Of a stretch of DNA of 64,000 bases, positions 1,276 to 47,311 are shown piece by piece. This DNA comes from Planctomycetota bacterium (lineage in GTDB: Bacteria; Planctomycetota; MHYJ01; WSZJ01; JACPWG01), in NCBI GenBank assembly GCA_016197205.1, contig JACPWG010000081.1, forward strand, positions 62,001 through 126,000. Reading direction: 5' to 3'. A program made the translations under genes and the position numbers. Below the pieces are notes generated by a model. The model was not told the DNA's origin and ran no database searches. It saw only the letters and a program-made list of their open reading frames with translations. How positions within the stretch are numbered: the stretch's first letter is position 1; every line of letters begins with the position of its first letter.

Positions 1276-1836
1276 TCACATCCTCGGCAGGGTGACCTCG
1301 ACCTGCCCCTGGTACTTCCCCTTCTTGTCGCCGTACGAGATCGCGCAGACGTCGTCCGGATCCGCTTCGAAGAAGATCACCTGGGCGATCCCCTCATTCG
1401 CGTAGATTTTCGCGGGCAGCGGCGTCGTGTTGGAGACCTCCAGGGTGGCGAACCCCTCCCATTCGGGCTCGAACGGGGTCACGTTCACGATGATGCCGCA
1501 GCGCGCGTACGTGGACTTCCCCACGCAGACCGTCAGGACGTTTCGGGGGATCTTGAAATACTCGACCGTCCGGGCCAGCGCGAAGGAGTTCGGCGGGATG
1601 ACGCACACGTCCGTCTTGAAATCGACGAACGAGCGGGCGTCGAAGTTCTTCGGGTCGACGACGGCGGTGTGGATGTTGGTGAAGACCTTGAACTCATCGG
1701 CGACGCGGATGTCGTAGCCGTAGGACGAGACGCCATAGGAGATGACGCCCTTGCGCACCTGCCGGTCCTCGAACGGCTTGATCATCCCCTGCTCGACGGC
1801 CAGCCGGCGGATCCAGCGGTCGGACTTGATGCTCAT
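1276..1836 (-). CDS. dcd: dCTP deaminase
   Basis: This 186-aa enzyme deaminates dCTP to dUTP in pyrimidine deoxynucleotide synthesis. Family signatures are visible: the [15 protein letters not shown] segment, the nucleotide-binding [10 protein letters not shown] (GRSSxARxG in other Dcd) and the C-terminal IAQVIFFE. Length fits the family. GGAGG stands 6 bases before the ATG, and a strong sigma-70-like promoter lies 70 bases further upstream. It is transcribed divergently from the secreted EF-hand gene. A bifunctional dCTP deaminase/dUTPase cannot be excluded by eye. Confidence 0.95.
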
Positions 1837-1906
1837 GGGTGGTCCTCCGGACCGGATGCGAGGGAGGTGCTTGGGGGGCGGTGGGCCCCGCCAAATGGAA
1901 GCGCCG

Positions 1907-1936
1907 AGTATAGCCGGTCCGGCGAACGGGTGTCAA
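1907..1936 (-). promoter_or_regulatory. Sigma-70-like promoter of dcd
   Basis: On the minus strand TTGACA is followed after 18 bases by TATACT. It points toward dcd and lies back to back with the EF-hand promoter. Confidence 0.8.
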
Positions 1937-1973
1937 GCAAAAGCGCCGGCGCCGGCGGCTTCGGCCATTTCCC

Positions 1974-2002
1974 TTGACCCTGCTGGACGCGCTCCCTAAG
2001 AT
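1974..2002 (+). promoter_or_regulatory. Sigma-70-like promoter of the EF-hand gene
   Basis: TTGACC, 17-base spacer, TAAGAT. It lies about 70 bases upstream of the start codon at 2074 and forms a divergent pair with the dcd promoter. Confidence 0.7.
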
Positions 2003-2073
2003 ACCCCCTCCTCTGGCGGGCCGCTGCGGCCCAAGCCAGGGGGTAATCCGCCTACAACCTAAGGAGGACATGC

Positions 2074-2769
2074 ATGCTCTCGTGGAAACGAGTCCTGGGT
2101 CTCGCGAGCGTCGCGGTGTTCGTCTCGGCCGTCGGGCTCCCCGTGTTCGCCGACGATGAGAAGCCCAAGGACGACGGCGGCAAGCCGGCGGCCGGCGACG
2201 CCAAGGGCGGGGACGCGAAAGGCGGCGATGCCAAGGGTGGCGATGCGAAGGGCGGAGACAGGCGCGGCGGCCGGCGCGGCCCGGACCTGGAGAAAGTTTG
2301 GGGCGAGCTGCTCGCGAAGTTCGACCAGGACAAGGACGGCAAACTGTCGGCCGACGAGTTCAAGGCCTGGCGGGAGGACGCGACCAAGGAGCATGCGGAC
2401 CCGGACAAGGCCCCGGCCTTCGCGAAGAAGCAGTTCGACAAGGACGGGGACGGCAAGCTCTCCGACGACGAGAAGGCCGCGCTGAAGAAGGACTTGGACG
2501 CGAGGAACGCCAAGTACAACGAGGCGTGGGAGGCGGCGTGGAAGAAGGCCGCGAAGGACGGCAAGCTCGAGAAGGAGAGCTGGGTCGCGGCCGCGAAGGA
2601 GATCGCGAACGAGATGCGCAAGGCCGGGCGCGAGGCCCACAAGGGCGGGCACGGCGACGGCAAGGCGGGGGAGGGCGACGCGAAGCCCGGTGACGGCGAC
2701 GACGACGCCGGCGGCGAAGACAAGGGCGCCCCGAAGGCCGGCGGCGAGGGCGGCGGGGACAAGAAGTAG
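2074..2769 (+). CDS. Secreted EF-hand protein
   Basis: This 231-aa exported protein starts with a clear Sec signal peptide (basic WKR, hydrophobic stretch, cleavage near VFADD). After it come four tandem DAKGG pentapeptides in a Gly/Asp/Lys linker. Two EF-hand calcium loops follow: DQDKDGKLSADE and DKDGDGKLSDDE, both with Asp at positions 1, 3 and 5, Gly at 6 and an acid at 12. The C-terminus is again Gly/Asp/Lys-rich and looks disordered. EF-hand proteins of this kind are common in planctomycetes; binding of Ca2+ is inferred from the loops. AAGGAGG precedes the ATG. Its partner is unknown. Confidence 0.8.
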   Translation: MLSWKRVLGLASVAVFVSAVGLPVFADDEKPKDDGGKPAAGDAKGGDAKGGDAKGGDAKGGDRRGGRRGPDLEKVWGELLAKFDQDKDGKLSADEFKAWREDATKEHADPDKAPAFAKKQFDKDGDGKLSDDEKAALKKDLDARNAKYNEAWEAAWKKAAKDGKLEKESWVAAAKEIANEMRKAGREAHKGGHGDGKAGEGDAKPGDGDDDAGGEDKGAPKAGGEGGGDKK

Positions 2770-29171: not shown

Positions 29172-30509
29172 ATGGCCACGGAGTCGAAGGGCGAAGACGA
29201 TTTCCTGAAGTGCGCCGTCGAGCGGAGGTTTCTCCGCCCCGACGACGTCGCCGAGATCCAGGCGGAGCGGGCGGAGTTCGAGGAGTTTCTCGGCCGCCCG
29301 GTCGCCGTGGCCCATGTCCTTTATCGACGCCAGTGGCTGACGCACGCCCAGCTCGCCGAAGTCCGGTCCCTGACGCACCGCCAGGTCGCCCTCTGCCCCG
29401 AGTGCTGGGCACGCATCAACGTCTTCACGCTCAAGGCGGGACAGTCCTTCCCGTGCCCCAACTGCAAGCTGCGGCTCCTCGTGCCGGCCGACCCGCACGC
29501 CGAGCTGCTCCCGCGTGAAGAGGCGCAGCCGATCCCGCTCGTCGGCGACGAAACCGTCGCCGGCGCACCGGACGCGACCCCCCGCAGCGTGCGGCGCTTC
29601 GAGGACCACCGCAGCTCGTTCGCCCAGCAGGGCATCGAGGTCGTGGAGGAGGTCGGCAGCGGCGGCATGGGCGTGGTCTACCGCGCGATCCAGCAGCCGC
29701 TGAATCGCGTGGTCGCGGTGAAGGTGCTCCATAGCGATCTGCGCAACGACCCGGTGATCGTGCGGCGGTTTTTCCGCGAGGCCCGCGAGACCGCGCGCCT
29801 CCAGCACCCGAACCTCGTCGCGCTCCATCATGCGGGCTTCTCCGACGGGTTTTATTTTCTCGTGCTCCAGTGGGTCCAGGGAAGGAACCTCCGTGAGCTG
29901 TCGACCGAGCGCGGACCGATGCCGGTCGCCGAAGTCCTGCGCCTGGCCGTCGACGTCACCCGCGGGCTCGGCGCGGTCCACGCCACCCGGCTCGTGCATC
30001 GGGACGTCAAGCCGTCGAACGTCATGGTCCGGGAGGACGGCTCCGCGTGCCTCACCGACTTCGGCCTCGTCCGCTCCGAAAGCCCCGATGCGTCCTCCAA
30101 GCTGACGAAGACCGGCGACGTGGTCGGGACGATCAACTACATGTCGCCGGAGCAGCTCACGGATCCGAGAATGGCGACGCCGGCGAGCGACCTCTACTCG
30201 CTCGGCGCGACGCTCTTCCACCTCCTTTCCGGCGACGCCCCGTTCGGCGGCGATAGCTGGTCGGACGCGGCCATCAAGCTCTCCTGCGGCCGCATCGAGC
30301 GCCTCGACCCGGAGCGCCTCTCGCTCCCACCCGCGGTGGCGGAGCTGGTCTCCCGCATGATGGCCCCGGACCCGAAGAAACGGTTTCCCGGCACGAAGGC
30401 CCTGGAGCAGGCCCTCCTCGCCGCCCTTCGGCAGTCGCACGGCGGCGCCCGGCGGCGCGGCTCCTCCGACACGCAGCAAATCCCCCTCATCGATTCCGAG
30501 CCGGGGTAG
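29172..30509 (+). CDS. Ser/Thr protein kinase with N-terminal zinc ribbon (paralogue 1)
   Basis: This 445-aa Hanks-type kinase has three parts. Residues ~10-75 form a helical domain (FLRPDDVAEI, RQWLTHAQLAEV). Residues ~75-110 hold a zinc ribbon CPEC-WARINVF...CPNC. The kinase domain follows with Gly loop GSGGMGVVYRA, VAIK-type AVKVL, catalytic HRDVKPSN, DFG and the SPEQL of the APE region. No membrane helix or extracellular sensor is present, so it is probably cytoplasmic. It shares domain order with the kinase at 32160. The transglutaminase-like gene follows on the same strand. Confidence 0.9.
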   Translation: MATESKGEDDFLKCAVERRFLRPDDVAEIQAERAEFEEFLGRPVAVAHVLYRRQWLTHAQLAEVRSLTHRQVALCPECWARINVFTLKAGQSFPCPNCKLRLLVPADPHAELLPREEAQPIPLVGDETVAGAPDATPRSVRRFEDHRSSFAQQGIEVVEEVGSGGMGVVYRAIQQPLNRVVAVKVLHSDLRNDPVIVRRFFREARETARLQHPNLVALHHAGFSDGFYFLVLQWVQGRNLRELSTERGPMPVAEVLRLAVDVTRGLGAVHATRLVHRDVKPSNVMVREDGSACLTDFGLVRSESPDASSKLTKTGDVVGTINYMSPEQLTDPRMATPASDLYSLGATLFHLLSGDAPFGGDSWSDAAIKLSCGRIERLDPERLSLPPAVAELVSRMMAPDPKKRFPGTKALEQALLAALRQSHGGARRRGSSDTQQIPLIDSEPG

Positions 30510-30692
30510 CCTCGCATGCCCGTCTTCCCGCGCCGAACGCAGCTAACCGCAACCAGAGTTGAACGCGGGTGCCACGCCCGTGGCACCCCTCACCCCGACC
30601 CTCTCCCCCACCAGGGGAGAGGGTGGCTGTTGACCTGGATCCCTCGGGCCCGCGCCCAAAGCATCCGGGTCAACAGCCTCGCAGCCCGTCCC

Positions 30693-31862
30693 ATGCGCGC
30701 CGCCGCGGCGGCCCTGGTCGCATGGCTCTTGCTGACGACCCAGGGCCCGCTCCTCCCCGCGCTGGCCGACGGCGCGGCCCCCGCCCCCTCCCCGGCGCCG
30801 GACCGCGCGGCCTTCCTCGACGGCGTGCCCGCGGACCTCCGCTCCGACGTCTCCCGCGCCCTCGACCTCGCCGGAGACAACGCCCCCGCGCTGATGGCCG
30901 GCGTGTGCGGCGTCGAGGGGGAGCGCGAACGGCGCTGGGCCTGCTGGCTCGTCGCGCACATGCCGGACAAGGTCCACGTCCGCTGCAGCCCGGAGGGCAG
31001 GGTCGAGCACGTCCAGGACCTCCGCGTCGTGACCGCCGACATGCTCGCCCACCACGTCCGTCTGGCGGCCGCCGCGCGCGAACGCTTCCCCTGGGCTCGC
31101 GACCTCCCGGAGGAACTCTACCTCGAAAACGTCCTGCCCCACCGGTTCACCGAGGAACCGCTCGAGGACTGGCGCGCGGGCCTGTGGGGCGAACTCGAAC
31201 CCCTGGCCGCGAAGTGTCCGACCGCGGAGGAGGCGGTGCTTGCAATCAACCGCTGGGCAGCGGAACGCTTCAAGTACGTGCCCCGGGGCGCGGAGGACCT
31301 CGGCATTCTCTCCGCCCTGAAGGAAGGCAAGGGCCGCTGCGAGGACATGAGCAACCTCGTGCGCGCTGCGCTGGCGACCTGCGGCCTCCCCGCCGCTTCC
31401 GTCTACACCCCCTGGTGGCCGCGGGGAGACGGGAACCACGCCTGGAACGAGGTGTATCTTGCCGGGGCGTGGCGGCAGTTCATGGGCTGCGAGCCGACCG
31501 CGGAGCCGCCCCATTTCGATCGCATGAAAAAGGACCGCGTCTTCGCGAAGGTCTACCGCTGCGGCTTCGTACGGGGTCGCAATGCCCCGGAGGACGTGAC
31601 CGCGGAGTACACGCCTGTACGGGACCTCGACCTCCGCCTCGATGCGCCGGACGCGCCCGTCGAGCTGTGCGTCATGAACATGGGGGAATGGCGCGGCGTC
31701 GCCTCGGCGCGGACGAATGCCGCGGGCCGGGTCCGCTTCGCGAACGTCGGCTGTCGCGACGCGCTTCTCTTCCGGGCACGGACCCCGGACGGCAAGGTGG
31801 GCACGGCCCCGTTCATCGCCCGAGGTCCGGGGTCGCCCGGCGCGCCCCCGCCCGAGCTGTAG
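30693..31862 (+). CDS. Secreted transglutaminase-like protein, ended by an amber codon
   Basis: This 389-aa reading frame has a signal peptide (MRAAAAALVAWLLL...ALADG). A transglutaminase-like core follows: catalytic Cys216 in GKGRCEDMSNL, His249 in GDGNHAWNEVYL, and an acidic MGCEP ~20 residues later in the usual Asp position. Such domains act as peptidases, amidases or cross-linkers; the substrate is not predictable. A C-terminal repeat begins APVELCVMNMGEWRGVASA. TAG at 31860 ends the frame, but clean coding sequence continues (next entry). I chose ATG 30693 because it opens the signal peptide. It sits between the two paralogous kinases. Confidence 0.82.
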   Translation: MRAAAAALVAWLLLTTQGPLLPALADGAAPAPSPAPDRAAFLDGVPADLRSDVSRALDLAGDNAPALMAGVCGVEGERERRWACWLVAHMPDKVHVRCSPEGRVEHVQDLRVVTADMLAHHVRLAAAARERFPWARDLPEELYLENVLPHRFTEEPLEDWRAGLWGELEPLAAKCPTAEEAVLAINRWAAERFKYVPRGAEDLGILSALKEGKGRCEDMSNLVRAALATCGLPAASVYTPWWPRGDGNHAWNEVYLAGAWRQFMGCEPTAEPPHFDRMKKDRVFAKVYRCGFVRGRNAPEDVTAEYTPVRDLDLRLDAPDAPVELCVMNMGEWRGVASARTNAAGRVRFANVGCRDALLFRARTPDGKVGTAPFIARGPGSPGAPPPEL

Positions 31863-32150
31863 TTCCTCGATGCGTCGCCGCTGCGCGGCCCGGGCGATGG
31901 GCGGGCGAACGTAGCGCTTGGCCCGCTCAAGCCGAAGACGACCTACGAGCTACTCTGCTGGTGCGGCGGGTGGGCGGGCGTGGCGCGCGCGACGAGCGAT
32001 GACGCGGGCCGCGGCGAGTTCGGGCGGGTAGGCCGGCTTTCGACGATCTACGCGCTCGCGGAGCGGCAGGGGGACCGCGTCACGGAGCTCTCCCGCCCCT
32101 TCCTCCTGGAGGCCGACGGGCCGGGCGAGACCCGGCGCGTCCATTACTGA
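31863..32150 (+). pseudogene. In-frame continuation of the transglutaminase-like gene beyond the amber codon
   Basis: Ninety-five sense codons follow the TAG in the same frame and end at TGA, 9 bases before the next gene's ATG. The translated segment FLDASPLRGPGDGRANVALG, then KTTYELLCWCGGWAGVARAT, then GRGEFGRV, parallels the end of the upstream part (ELCVMNMGEWRGVASARTNA). So a second copy of the same beta-type repeat is encoded. Either one base change truncated the protein or the TAG is read through. No start codon with a ribosome site is near the break. Confidence 0.8.
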
Positions 32151-32159
32151 CGAGAGCCG

Positions 32160-33473
32160 ATGGAATCACGGGGCGATCAGGAATTCCTGGCCGGCGCGGT
32201 GAAGCAGGGCTTTCTCCAGGAGGAGGACCTGCCGGAGATCCTGGCCGAGCGAGAGGAGGTCGAGGCATTCCAGGGGCGCGCGGTCCCGGTCGCCCATCTC
32301 CTGCTCCAGCGTCAGTGGCTGACGCCGGAGCAGATGGACCGCGTGGTCGAGGCGACCGGGCGTCGAATCCTGCTCTGCCCGGCCTGTTGGGCGAGGATCA
32401 ACGTCTTCAGCCTGAAGCCGGAGCAGCTCTTCCTCTGCAGTTGCTGCAAGGCGCGCGTCCTGGTGCCGGCCGACGCCCACGCGGAAGTCCTGCTGCGCGA
32501 GTCGGCCGCGCGCGCCGCAAAGTCGTCGCGTGAGCCGGCGGGCGGCTCCGGGGGGGACGCCGTCACCATCCGCCGCATCGCGCACCGAAACACCTTCGAG
32601 GTGCAGGGCTTCCAGGTCCTGGAGGAGGTCGGCGCGGGCGGGATGGGCGTGGTCTACCGGGCCATCCAGCAACCCATCAACCGCACCGTGGCGATCAAGG
32701 TCCTCCACGGCGGCCTGCGGCACGACCCGCAGGTGGTGCGACGCTTCTTCCGCGAGGCGCGCTACACCGCGCGCGTGGAGCACCCGAACGTCGTCGCCGT
32801 CCACCACGCCGGCTTTTCCGGCGGGTTCCACTTCCTGGTCCTCCAGTGGATCGCCGGTCGAAATCTGCGCGAGGTGTCGGCGGCCGAGGGCCCCATGCGC
32901 CCGCTGCGCGCGCTCAACCTGTGCATCGACGCGGCAAAGGGGCTCGAGGCGATCCATCGGGCGAACCTCGTGCACCGGGACGTGAAGCCTTCGAACCTGC
33001 TCTTGCGTGCGGACGGGACGGCTTGCGTCACCGATTTCGGGCTGGTCCGGTCGAGCGTGAGCGGGGGCTCGATGCTCACGAAGACGGGCGACCTCGTGGG
33101 GACGATCAACTACATGCCCCCGGAGCAGCTCAACGACGCGAGGCAGGCCGGTCCCGCGAGCGACGTCTACTCGCTGGGCGCTACGCTGTTCCACCTGCTG
33201 TGCGGCTTCTCGCCCTTCTCGGGGGAGAGCCTGTCCAGCGCGGCCCTGAAGCTCGTGCGCGGGCAGATCCCGCAATTGGACGCGCGGGCGCTGAAGCTCC
33301 CGCCCCCGGTCGCAGCGCTGGTCAAGCGCATGATGTCCCCGGAACCGGGCCCGCGCCCCCAGTCGATGACGGAGGCGGAGGCCGAGCTGTCCGCGGCCCT
33401 CCGGGCCTCGCTCGGCGACTCCCCGGGCGGGGCGCGGCCGGACCGGGACACGCACCTGCCGGAGGAGGAATAG
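32160..33473 (+). CDS. Ser/Thr protein kinase with N-terminal zinc ribbon (paralogue 2)
   Basis: This 437-aa kinase is a close paralogue of the one at 29172. It keeps the N-terminal helical domain (FLQEEDLPEILAERE, RQWLTPEQMD), the ribbon CPACWARINVF...CSCC and a complete kinase core: GAGGMGVVYRA, AIKVL, HRDVKPSN, DFG, PPEQL. The C-terminus is a short charged tail. It starts 9 bases after the TGA of the transglutaminase-like extension, so the three genes are probably one operon. Its substrate is unknown. Confidence 0.9.
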   Translation: MESRGDQEFLAGAVKQGFLQEEDLPEILAEREEVEAFQGRAVPVAHLLLQRQWLTPEQMDRVVEATGRRILLCPACWARINVFSLKPEQLFLCSCCKARVLVPADAHAEVLLRESAARAAKSSREPAGGSGGDAVTIRRIAHRNTFEVQGFQVLEEVGAGGMGVVYRAIQQPINRTVAIKVLHGGLRHDPQVVRRFFREARYTARVEHPNVVAVHHAGFSGGFHFLVLQWIAGRNLREVSAAEGPMRPLRALNLCIDAAKGLEAIHRANLVHRDVKPSNLLLRADGTACVTDFGLVRSSVSGGSMLTKTGDLVGTINYMPPEQLNDARQAGPASDVYSLGATLFHLLCGFSPFSGESLSSAALKLVRGQIPQLDARALKLPPPVAALVKRMMSPEPGPRPQSMTEAEAELSAALRASLGDSPGGARPDRDTHLPEEE

Positions 33474-45040: not shown

Positions 45041-45058
45041 GTCCTGGAAGCTCCTCGT

Positions 45059-45130
45059 AGGCCGGTAGGTCAGCAGCCAGACCGGCGGTCTCCAAAACCG
45101 CAGACGGAGGTGCGAGTCCTCCCCGGCCTG
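45059..45130 (+). tRNA. tRNA-Trp(CCA)
   Basis: Acceptor AGGCCGG/CCGGCCT, anticodon loop CTCCAAA, T-loop TGCGAGT (G55). Discriminator G; CCA not encoded. First gene of the array. Confidence 0.9.
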
Positions 45131-45150
45131 TGGTCTCGCGAAGCTCACGG

Positions 45151-45174
45151 AACCGCGACCGTCAGGGAGCGGTC
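45151..45174 (+). repeat. REP-like element (R6)
   Basis: AACCGCGACCGTCAGG...GAGCGGTC between the first two tRNA genes. Confidence 0.7.
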
Positions 45175-45318
45175 TCCGCGCGTGCGCTCTCGCCCGCTGC
45201 TTCAACCTCGCGCTCCGGCGTGCGAGCGCCCTGCGCAACGAGCACGAAAAGAAAACAGCCGGTTCAGCTCCCCGCTCCCCGTCCGTCCCGAGGCCGGCCG
45301 GTGGCGCGGGGCGCGCGC

Positions 45319-45393
45319 GGTGCCTTGGTGTAGCAGTCTGCACGCCTGCCTGTCGAGCAGGAAGCACGGGGGCAGCACCCGTAGGCACCGCCA
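45319..45393 (+). tRNA. tRNA-Asp(GTC)
   Basis: Acceptor GGTGCCT/AGGCACC, anticodon stem CCTGC/GCAGG with loop CTGTCGA. The T-arm is ACGGG/CCCGT with an aberrant loop GGCAGCA. CCA encoded. Confidence 0.85.
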
Positions 45394-45397
45394 GAAC

Positions 45398-45472
45398 TCG
45401 GGGGTCGGCCAACCGGTAGGCCGCCGGGCCCTGACCCCGGAAATGTTGGTTCAAACCCAGCCCCCCGAGCCA
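45398..45472 (+). tRNA. tRNA-Gln(CTG)
   Basis: Acceptor TCGGGGG/CCCCCGA, anticodon stem CCGGG/CCCGG, loop CCCTGAC with C33 instead of U33. Normal T-loop TTCAAAC; CCA encoded. Confidence 0.8.
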
Positions 45473-45473
45473 C

Positions 45474-45545
45474 GGAGGCCTGGCGTAGTAGTCTGCGCGG
45501 CTGGCTGAAGACCAGCAGGTCACGGTGCGATCCCGTGGGCCTCCA
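45474..45545 (+). tRNA. tRNA-Phe(GAA)
   Basis: Acceptor GGAGGCC/GGCCTCC, anticodon stem GCTGG/CCAGC with loop CTGAAGA, T-loop TGCGATC (G55). Discriminator A. Confidence 0.88.
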
Positions 45546-45558
45546 TCCTCGCCGCTCC

Positions 45559-45629
45559 GGGCCCATCGTTCAACAGGAGGACGCGAGACCGGCAGTCTCG
45601 AAATCGGGGTGCGATTCCCCGTGGGTCCA
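45559..45629 (+). tRNA. tRNA-Ala(GGC)
   Basis: Acceptor GGGCCCA/TGGGTCC contains the G3:U70 alanine identity pair. Anticodon stem CGAGA/TCTCG, loop CCGGCAG with C33. T-loop TGCGATT (G55), discriminator A. Confidence 0.82.
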
Positions 45630-45638
45630 TTCGCGAAC

Positions 45639-45721
45639 GGGCGTGCTGCTGAGTGGGATCAGGGCCGGGCCGTAACCCCGGCGCCATCACGAGCTAGGGG
45701 GTTCGATTCCCTACGCGCCCA
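45639..45721 (+). tRNA. tRNA-Tyr(GTA)
   Basis: Acceptor GGGCGTG/CGCGCCC, anticodon stem CCGGG/CCCGG with loop CCGTAAC, and the long variable arm expected of bacterial tRNA-Tyr. T-loop contains TTCGAT. Position 33 reads C in the simplest alignment; the D arm is irregular. Confidence 0.8.
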
Positions 45722-45752
45722 TTCCCGTCGCGCCGAGCGCGGGCTGCGACAC

Positions 45753-45824
45753 TCGGGGGTCGTCCAGCAGGTAGGACGCCTGGCTTTGGACCAGGAGACC
45801 CCGGTCCGAATCCGGGCCCCCGAA
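45753..45824 (+). tRNA. tRNA-Gln(TTG)
   Basis: Acceptor TCGGGGG/CCCCCGA, loop CTTTGGA, T-arm CCCGG/CCGGG with loop TCCGAAT (C55). Discriminator A. Confidence 0.86.
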
Positions 45825-45829
45825 TCCTC

Positions 45830-45900
45830 GGGCCCCTCGTCCAATAGGAAGACGCCGCCTTCGCAAGACGGAAATGCGGGTGCGACTCCCGCGGGGTCCA
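45830..45900 (+). tRNA. tRNA-Ala(CGC)
   Basis: Acceptor GGGCCCC/GGGGTCC with G3:U70. Loop TTCGCAA; one C-A mismatch in the anticodon stem. T-loop TGCGACT (G55). Confidence 0.82.
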
Positions 45901-45930
45901 TGCCTCTTTCGGCACCGCGTGGCTCTTCGT

Positions 45931-46003
45931 GCGGCCGTGGTGGAGCCAGCAACACGTCTCCTTCCCAAGGAGAAGATCGCGGGTGCGAACCCCGCCGGCC
46001 GCT
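45931..46003 (+). tRNA. tRNA-Gly(CCC)
   Basis: Acceptor GCGGCCG/CGGCCGC, anticodon stem TCTCC/GGAGA with loop TTCCCAA, T-loop TGCGAAC (G55), discriminator T. Confidence 0.9.
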
Positions 46004-46007
46004 TCCC

Positions 46008-46079
46008 GCGGACGTGGTGTAGGAGCAACACGCCACCGTGCCAAGGTGGAGATCACGGGTGCGAATCCCGTCGTCCGCT
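46008..46079 (+). tRNA. tRNA-Gly(GCC), array copy
   Basis: Acceptor GCGGACG/CGTCCGC, anticodon stem CCACC/GGTGG with loop GTGCCAA, T-loop TGCGAAT (G55). Same anticodon as the stand-alone tRNA at 2942, which has a normal T-loop. Confidence 0.9.
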
Positions 46080-46105
46080 TGCGCGTCCCCTGCCCACGAC
46101 GCGAA

Positions 46106-46176
46106 CCGCTCGTAGTTCAAGAGCAGAATCGCCGGTCGATAACCGGCAGATCGAGGTGCAAGTCCTCGCGAGCGGA
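46106..46176 (+). tRNA. tRNA-Ile(GAT)
   Basis: Acceptor CCGCTCG/CGAGCGG, anticodon stem GCCGG/CCGGC with loop TCGATAA, T-loop TGCAAGT (G55), discriminator A. Confidence 0.87.
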
Positions 46177-46191
46177 TTGCAGCTCCCACAC

Positions 46192-46266
46192 GCCGGACGA
46201 AGGCGAAGAGACGAGCCCCCTGACTGTGAACCAGGGCCATAGCCGGTGCAAGTCCGGTCGTCCGGC
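46192..46266 (+). tRNA. tRNA-His(GTG)
   Basis: An extra G-1 (46192) pairs with C73 (46266), the histidine hallmark. Loop CTGTGAA; an A-C mismatch closes the anticodon stem. T-loop TGCAAGT (G55). Confidence 0.86.
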
Positions 46267-46271
46267 CTCTC

Positions 46272-46345
46272 CGGGGCGTAGCTCAGTCGTGCAGAGCGCC
46301 TGGTTCGGGACCAGGAGGCCGGAGGTTCAAATCCTCTCGCCCCGA
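46272..46345 (+). tRNA. tRNA-Pro(CGG)
   Basis: Acceptor CGGGGCG/CGCCCCG, anticodon stem CCTGG/CCAGG with loop TTCGGGA, normal T-loop TTCAAAT, discriminator A. Confidence 0.94.
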
Positions 46346-46347
46346 TC

Positions 46348-46418
46348 GGGACCGTCGTCTAGCAGCAGGACGCCTCCGTGACAGGGAGGAAACGGTGGTG
46401 CGATTCCACCCGGGCCCA
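46348..46418 (+). tRNA. tRNA-Val(GAC)
   Basis: Acceptor GGGACCG/CGGGCCC with one A-G mismatch, anticodon stem CCTCC/GGAGG with loop GTGACAG, T-loop TGCGATT (G55). Confidence 0.82.
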
Positions 46419-46435
46419 TGACTTGTTTTGTTTTC

Positions 46436-46507
46436 GCCGCCCTCGTCCAGCAGCCAGGACGCCGCCATGGTAGGGCGGAAACGCGGGTGCGACTCCCGCG
46501 GGCGGCT
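46436..46507 (+). tRNA. tRNA-Thr(GGT)
   Basis: Acceptor GCCGCCC/GGGCGGC, anticodon stem CCGCC/GGCGG with loop ATGGTAG, T-loop TGCGACT (G55), discriminator T. Confidence 0.9.
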
Positions 46508-46511
46508 TCGT

Positions 46512-46603
46512 GGAGGCGTTGGGCATGCGGCAAGCCCACCCCGCTCGAAACGGGAAGGACGCCGATAGGCGCCCTGCAGGTTCGACTCCTGCCGCCTCCG
46601 CCA
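46512..46603 (+). tRNA. tRNA-Ser(CGA)
   Basis: Acceptor GGAGGCG/CGCCTCC, loop CTCGAAA, long variable arm, normal T-loop TTCGACT, CCA encoded. Its last 14 bases recur at 61019-61032. Confidence 0.92.
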
Positions 46604-46610
46604 GCCTCCT

Positions 46611-46823
46611 GGAGACGATGCGGATAGGCAGGGCCCGTAAAGGAATGACTCATGGATCGGCACTCTCGTCGGAGGGAAAAGGCCCTTGTGGTGCAGGCCT
46701 TCCGGCCTGCACAGACTGGCGTGAGTGCCTGACTTGTTCCTTTACGGGCCCTCAGGTGTCCGCACGCGCCTGGAAAGCGCGCCTCCCGCGAGGGAGCTGT
46801 CGGGGCAGCACCGACCGTCTCCG
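46611..46823 (+). tRNA. tRNA-Ser(GGA) split by an insert in the D loop
   Basis: Acceptor GGAGACG (46611-46617) pairs with CGTCTCC (46816-46822), and D-stem GCGGA (46620-46624) with TCCGC (46759-46763). The anticodon stem CGCGC/GCGCG holds loop CTGGAAA; a long variable hairpin follows. The T-arm GTCGG/CCGAC has the aberrant loop GGCAGCA, as in the tRNA-Asp of this array. Removing 46630-46752 restores an 11-base D loop containing GG. Confidence 0.75.
46630..46752. mobile_element. Palindromic 123-bp insert in tRNA-Ser(GGA)
   Basis: The ends are a perfect 16-bp inverted repeat, AGGGCCCGTAAAGGAA and its complement. A second inner pair GGCACTC/GAGTGCC is nested within, and the centre is an R5 hairpin (46688-46711). 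No clear target-site duplication was found. It could be a transposed miniature element or an excised spacer. Confidence 0.72.
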
Positions 46824-46829
46824 TTCCGT

Positions 46830-46921
46830 GGAAGGTCGGCGAAGTTCGGAGCGTCGCACGAGGTTGCTACCCTCGGGTCTCGTGTCGAGACCAGCCGGTT
46901 CGAATCCGGCACCTTCCGCCA
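46830..46921 (+). tRNA. tRNA-Ser(GCT)
   Basis: Acceptor GGAAGGT/ACCTTCC, anticodon stem CGAGG/CCTCG with loop TTGCTAC, long variable arm, normal T-loop TTCGAAT, CCA encoded. Confidence 0.93.
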
Positions 46922-46992
46922 AATTCCAGGGCCCAGGTGACGACCGTCCGCAAACACCCTCTTGGGAGGAAGCCTTCGCCCCCTGCTCCCTC

Positions 46993-47064
46993 GCGCGGCT
47001 GGCCGAGCAGCGAGGCATCCGCCTGCAGAGCGGACCGAGGTCGGTGCGACTCCGACGCCGCGCT
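46993..47064 (+). tRNA. tRNA-Cys(GCA)
   Basis: Acceptor GCGCGGC/GCCGCGC, anticodon stem TCCGC/GCGGA with loop CTGCAGA, T-loop TGCGACT (G55), discriminator T as expected for Cys. Confidence 0.9.
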
Positions 47065-47075
47065 TCGATCGCCGG

Positions 47076-47151
47076 GCTGCCCAAGCTCAAGCAGACGAGC
47101 GGCGCTTTCGTAAAGCGCAGGTTGCGGGTGCAAATCCCGCGGGCAGCTCCA
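47076..47151 (+). tRNA. tRNA-Thr(CGT)
   Basis: Acceptor GCTGCCC/GGGCAGC, anticodon stem GCGCT/AGCGC with loop TTCGTAA, T-loop TGCAAAT (G55), CCA encoded. Confidence 0.9.
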
Positions 47152-47234
47152 CACTTCGCGCTACGCGCTGCGCGCTACGCGCTACGTGTGGCAGGCCACT
47201 ATGGGCCCTGCTCGCTCCGTGTGCTTGGCTTCAC

Positions 47235-47311
47235 TGTGGGGTCGGGTAACGGGTAGCCCGCCTGCCTGTTAAGCAGGAATGGTGTGGGTTCGACTCCCAC
47301 CCCCACAGCCA
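47235..47311 (+). tRNA. tRNA-Asn(GTT)
   Basis: Acceptor TGTGGGG/CCCCACA, anticodon stem CCTGC/GCAGG with loop CTGTTAA, normal T-loop TTCGACT, CCA encoded. Last gene of the array. Confidence 0.94.

Follow-up and report, generated by a model that had tools for sequence, protein, structure and literature searches.

Transglutaminase-like gene interrupted by an in-frame amber codon

Does the amber codon at 31860 close the transglutaminase-like gene of this Planctomycetota bacterium, or does it lie inside the gene, and if so, how did it come to be there and is it read in any special way? The window, i.e. the whole 64-kb stretch of DNA that was analysed, belongs to a 273 kb contig of a 9.1 Mb draft genome (197 contigs, 90.84% complete). 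The original prediction placed the TAG inside the gene and offered a recent nonsense mutation, a sequencing error or programmed read-through as its origin. Here we show that relatives run uninterrupted through the site, and that the case is an ordinary one, most simply accounted for by a chance mutation or by an error in the assembly.

Reading frame on both sides of the TAG

From the ATG at 30693 the frame comprises 389 codons up to the TAG and a further 95 sense codons up to the TGA, 9 bases short of the next gene (Table 1), as had been predicted. The parallel repeat reported before and after the TAG was also found, as the stretches MGEWRGVASART and WCGGWAGVARAT of the transglutaminase-like gene.

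Table 1. Features of the transglutaminase-like locus, with positions in the window
Feature	Positions	Strand	Basis or detail
Ser/Thr protein kinase gene, upstream neighbour	29172..30509	+	own stop is TAG
Transglutaminase-like protein, part before the TAG	30693..31859	+	PF01841, alignment, predicted structure
In-frame TAG (codon 390), in a variable linker between two C-terminal beta domains	31860..31862	+	sequence, alignment, model
Coding segment of the second C-terminal beta domain, which the family conserves	31863..32147	+	alignment, profile, codon usage, model
TGA, where the natural stop of the family falls	32148..32150	+	alignment
Ser/Thr protein kinase gene, downstream neighbour, with a layout like that of the upstream kinase	32160..33473	+	start ATG 32160

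The open length after the TAG is by itself uninformative, since a stop-free stretch of 95 codons has a chance probability of 0.14 at the GC content of 0.689; where GC is high, the meaning of a frame left open beyond a stop has to be judged by homology and not by length. Codon-usage log-odds per codon were 0.228 after the TAG, at the 31st percentile of 95-codon gene windows (median 0.290), as compared to 0.266 before it, and GC3 was 0.905 as against 0.900 upstream. The other five frames over the same segment gave log-odds of -0.55 to 0.02 and all contained stops. Past the TAG, this frame alone uses codons in the manner of a gene, in agreement with the composition noted earlier, and it carries no further lesion.

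The segment might be taken for a separate small gene, ending as it does 9 bases before the next one. However, the first in-frame ATG, GTG or TTG after the TAG is a GTG at 31980, 39 codons in, which is too late for a restart of the second beta domain, and in relatives the segment is fused with the core in one frame. We give this reading practically no credence.

Other in-frame extensions in the examined DNA were considered and set aside. One joined a LarC-like gene to a UvrC-like gene that has a start of its own, another joined the upstream kinase gene to the transglutaminase-like gene, and two on the minus strand have the look of non-coding shadow frames. The two similar Ser/Thr kinases on both sides of the transglutaminase-like gene each carry an N-terminal cysteine-rich motif, in a genome with at least 150 kinase domains. 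The intergenic stretch at 30573-30630, between the upstream kinase and the transglutaminase-like gene, is repeat-like (CCTCACCCCGACCCTCTCCCCCACCAGGGGAGAGGGTGG) and includes an inverted repeat.

Domain organisation of the predicted protein

Transglut_core (PF01841) matched residues 172-262 with 57 bits (cut-off 23), and Cys216 and His249 were invariant in 27 sequences; the protein can be assigned to the transglutaminase-like superfamily, with activity predicted from sequence. Both residues precede the TAG, as do the other invariant residues of the core. The part before the TAG comprises a putative signal peptide, judged from the sequence by reading, a helical N-terminal region, the Transglut_core and a first C-terminal beta domain, so that everything from the signal peptide through the catalytic core to the first beta domain is spared by the TAG. 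A structure model of the read-through protein, in which the TAG was taken as Gln for modelling (mean pLDDT 86.3), showed a transglutaminase core preceded by the helical N-terminal part and followed by two C-terminal beta domains, with residue 390 in a lower-confidence linker separating these two. Foldseek searches with this model returned transglutaminases and a related Cytophaga protein. The likeness to the solved structures of animal transglutaminases and of the Cytophaga putative cysteine protease 3isr is in fold and catalytic core, whereas sequence identity is 8-16% and TM-scores are low. No NCBIfam model was found for the family as a whole, and none in Pfam or NCBIfam for its C-terminal domain.

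The segment past the TAG is the C-terminal domain of the family

A family profile of 456 positions, built from six members, was matched to position 441 or beyond by 35 other genomes of the phylum, with no internal stops; the TAG was unique to the source genome in this search. Orthologues ending at the same place would speak against an interrupted gene, but all 35 genomes continue. Alignment with 29 relatives identified the segment after the TAG as the C-terminal domain of the family; in most relatives it closes with an R-P-F-like motif, and the stop follows shortly after. W427, Y453 and R468, invariant or nearly so in the family, are kept beyond the TAG. The same domain ends relatives in loci named Zixibacteria, Neomarinimicrobiota, Calditrichia and Bacteroidetes, all of which run through the site. 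No genome of the same genus was found among those searched.

With the segment itself left out of the profile, which was built on the other orthologues, it scored 21.9 bits, the best of 2000 shuffles reaching 6.2, and the nearest relative (G058), likewise left out, gave 24.7 bits. The 95-residue tail used alone as query found no convincing relative (best E 0.008), since the domain has diverged too far to be found from one sequence; a profile recovers it. A scan of genome contigs with a single protein found nothing, and a scan with the alignment found relatives. It is this homology past the TAG, the open length not being decisive, that places the TAG inside the gene. Being conserved in the family and unmatched in Pfam and NCBIfam, the C-terminal domain could be described.

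In another genome of the same order (G002, locus L091, match 1501-2565, minus strand), most of the C-terminal domain is replaced by repeat-like sequence of the SQLATRNSQ type. This genome too is a draft; its loss of the domain indicates that the domain may be dispensable.

Decoding of TAG in the source genome

Release factor 1 (RF1) is present (431.8 bits, cut-off 423.25), and TAG ends 39 of the 79 training ORFs from the window and neighbouring stretches, in which it is the commonest stop. The absence of a tRNA with a CTA anticodon from the tRNA array of the window, noted in the original prediction, is correct and holds for the typed tRNAs of the rest of the assembly as well: at the loci of 65 tRNA matches in this approximately 91% complete assembly, ARAGORN typed none. 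The genome-wide search proposed earlier for such a tRNA and for pyl genes was likewise negative for PylS, which was not found over the cut-off in the same assembly; a weak TIGR02367 match lay far below it, as in most control genomes. No stop was found inside 150 kinase domains of the genome. Reassignment of TAG, or its use for pyrrolysine, has the in-frame TAG itself in its favour and nothing else; with RF1 present, TAG in normal use as a stop, and neither CTA tRNA nor PylS found in the incomplete assembly, we reject it as having a negligible chance of being correct.

Programmed UAG read-through, by which a small share of the protein would be made long, with both beta domains, beside a major short form, is consistent with the preserved downstream sequence and codon usage and with the position of the TAG, in the model, exactly between two domains. 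Belinky et al. 2021 (PMC7918605) argue that bacterial in-frame stops are often read through, and required suspected prokaryotic cases to occur in orthologues of at least two species. The present TAG resembles theirs in standing in an otherwise conserved frame whose downstream part is preserved, but it occurs in a single genome; none of the 35 relatives shares it, although the extension is conserved, and it does not pass their shared-stop filter (PMC7918605). Besides RF1 being present and no CTA tRNA being found, RNA around and after the TAG showed no unusual structure as compared to shuffles (z-scores -0.50, 1.09 and -0.09), a stimulatory structure near read-through stops being common but not obligatory. 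Near-cognate reading through shortened anticodon stems was ruled out for the two tRNA-Gln genes of the array, whose stems have the ordinary five pairs. Of the three origins first offered, programmed read-through received no positive support and we hold it to be very unlikely, whereas the nonsense mutation and a sequencing or assembly error remain. It is highly doubtful that a lineage-specific amber read-through by a near-cognate tRNA sets the proportion in which the exported transglutaminase-like protein occurs as short and as long form. Special decoding of TAG in the source genome is not supported.

Origin of the interruption

A check of kinase, ABC ATPase and transglutaminase domains gave one internal stop in roughly 50,000 codons, as estimated from match lengths. 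This stop, the second isolated one in frame besides the TAG at 31860, is in an otherwise intact ABC ATPase (L218 position 1477; G000:C12, about 121276), where it falls just before Walker B. Since an isolated stop occurs elsewhere in the assembly, one lesion in a 64-kb window is unremarkable, and since that stop is TAA, the lesions are not specific to TAG.

The TAG may possibly be an artefact of the draft assembly, through a base error or a mixed-strain consensus, with a sense codon in the organism. The fragmented and incomplete state of the assembly, the intact and gene-like remainder of the gene, and the isolated stop in the conserved ABC ATPase would all fit such an artefact, which we consider a real though lesser possibility. 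However, one stop per roughly 50,000 conserved-domain codons speaks for a low error rate, and real nonsense mutations are presumably at least as common. We favour a nonsense mutation over an assembly error because the lesion rate here is low, which is a judgement and not a measurement.

A recent single nonsense substitution in a conserved gene is the probable origin of the TAG at 31860, and we infer that the base is real. The substitution would have occurred in the gene for a transglutaminase-like protein predicted to be exported; ribosomes would terminate at the TAG with RF1, and the product would be a protein of 389 residues with catalytic core and first beta domain in place and the last domain missing. 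That the tail scores near the nearest relative (21.9 and 24.7 bits), with codon usage intact and no further lesion, suggests that the event was recent. Despite its truncation, the protein may have retained activity. Orthologues in frame through the site, as seen in the 35 genomes and the alignment, would mark this as a nonsense-truncated gene. It would resemble bacterial pseudogenes and alleles truncated by a single nonsense substitution, sharing with them one stop, an otherwise intact gene-like frame and intact relatives; no tested feature sets it apart from them. In annotation, it should be flagged as interrupted; little follows beyond that.

The tRNA array of the window

The array at 45058-47311 of the window contains 16 tRNA genes. 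In nine of them (Trp, Phe, Gly-ccc, Gly-gcc, Ile, Val, Thr-ggt, Cys and Thr-cgt) the T-loop has TGCRA instead of TTCRA, and the D-loops of these nine are mostly without the usual GG. Elsewhere in the genome such loop changes were seen in three of about 50 tRNAs, two of which lie in a second small array (L048). Similar changes are known in the non-translational glycine tRNAs of staphylococci.
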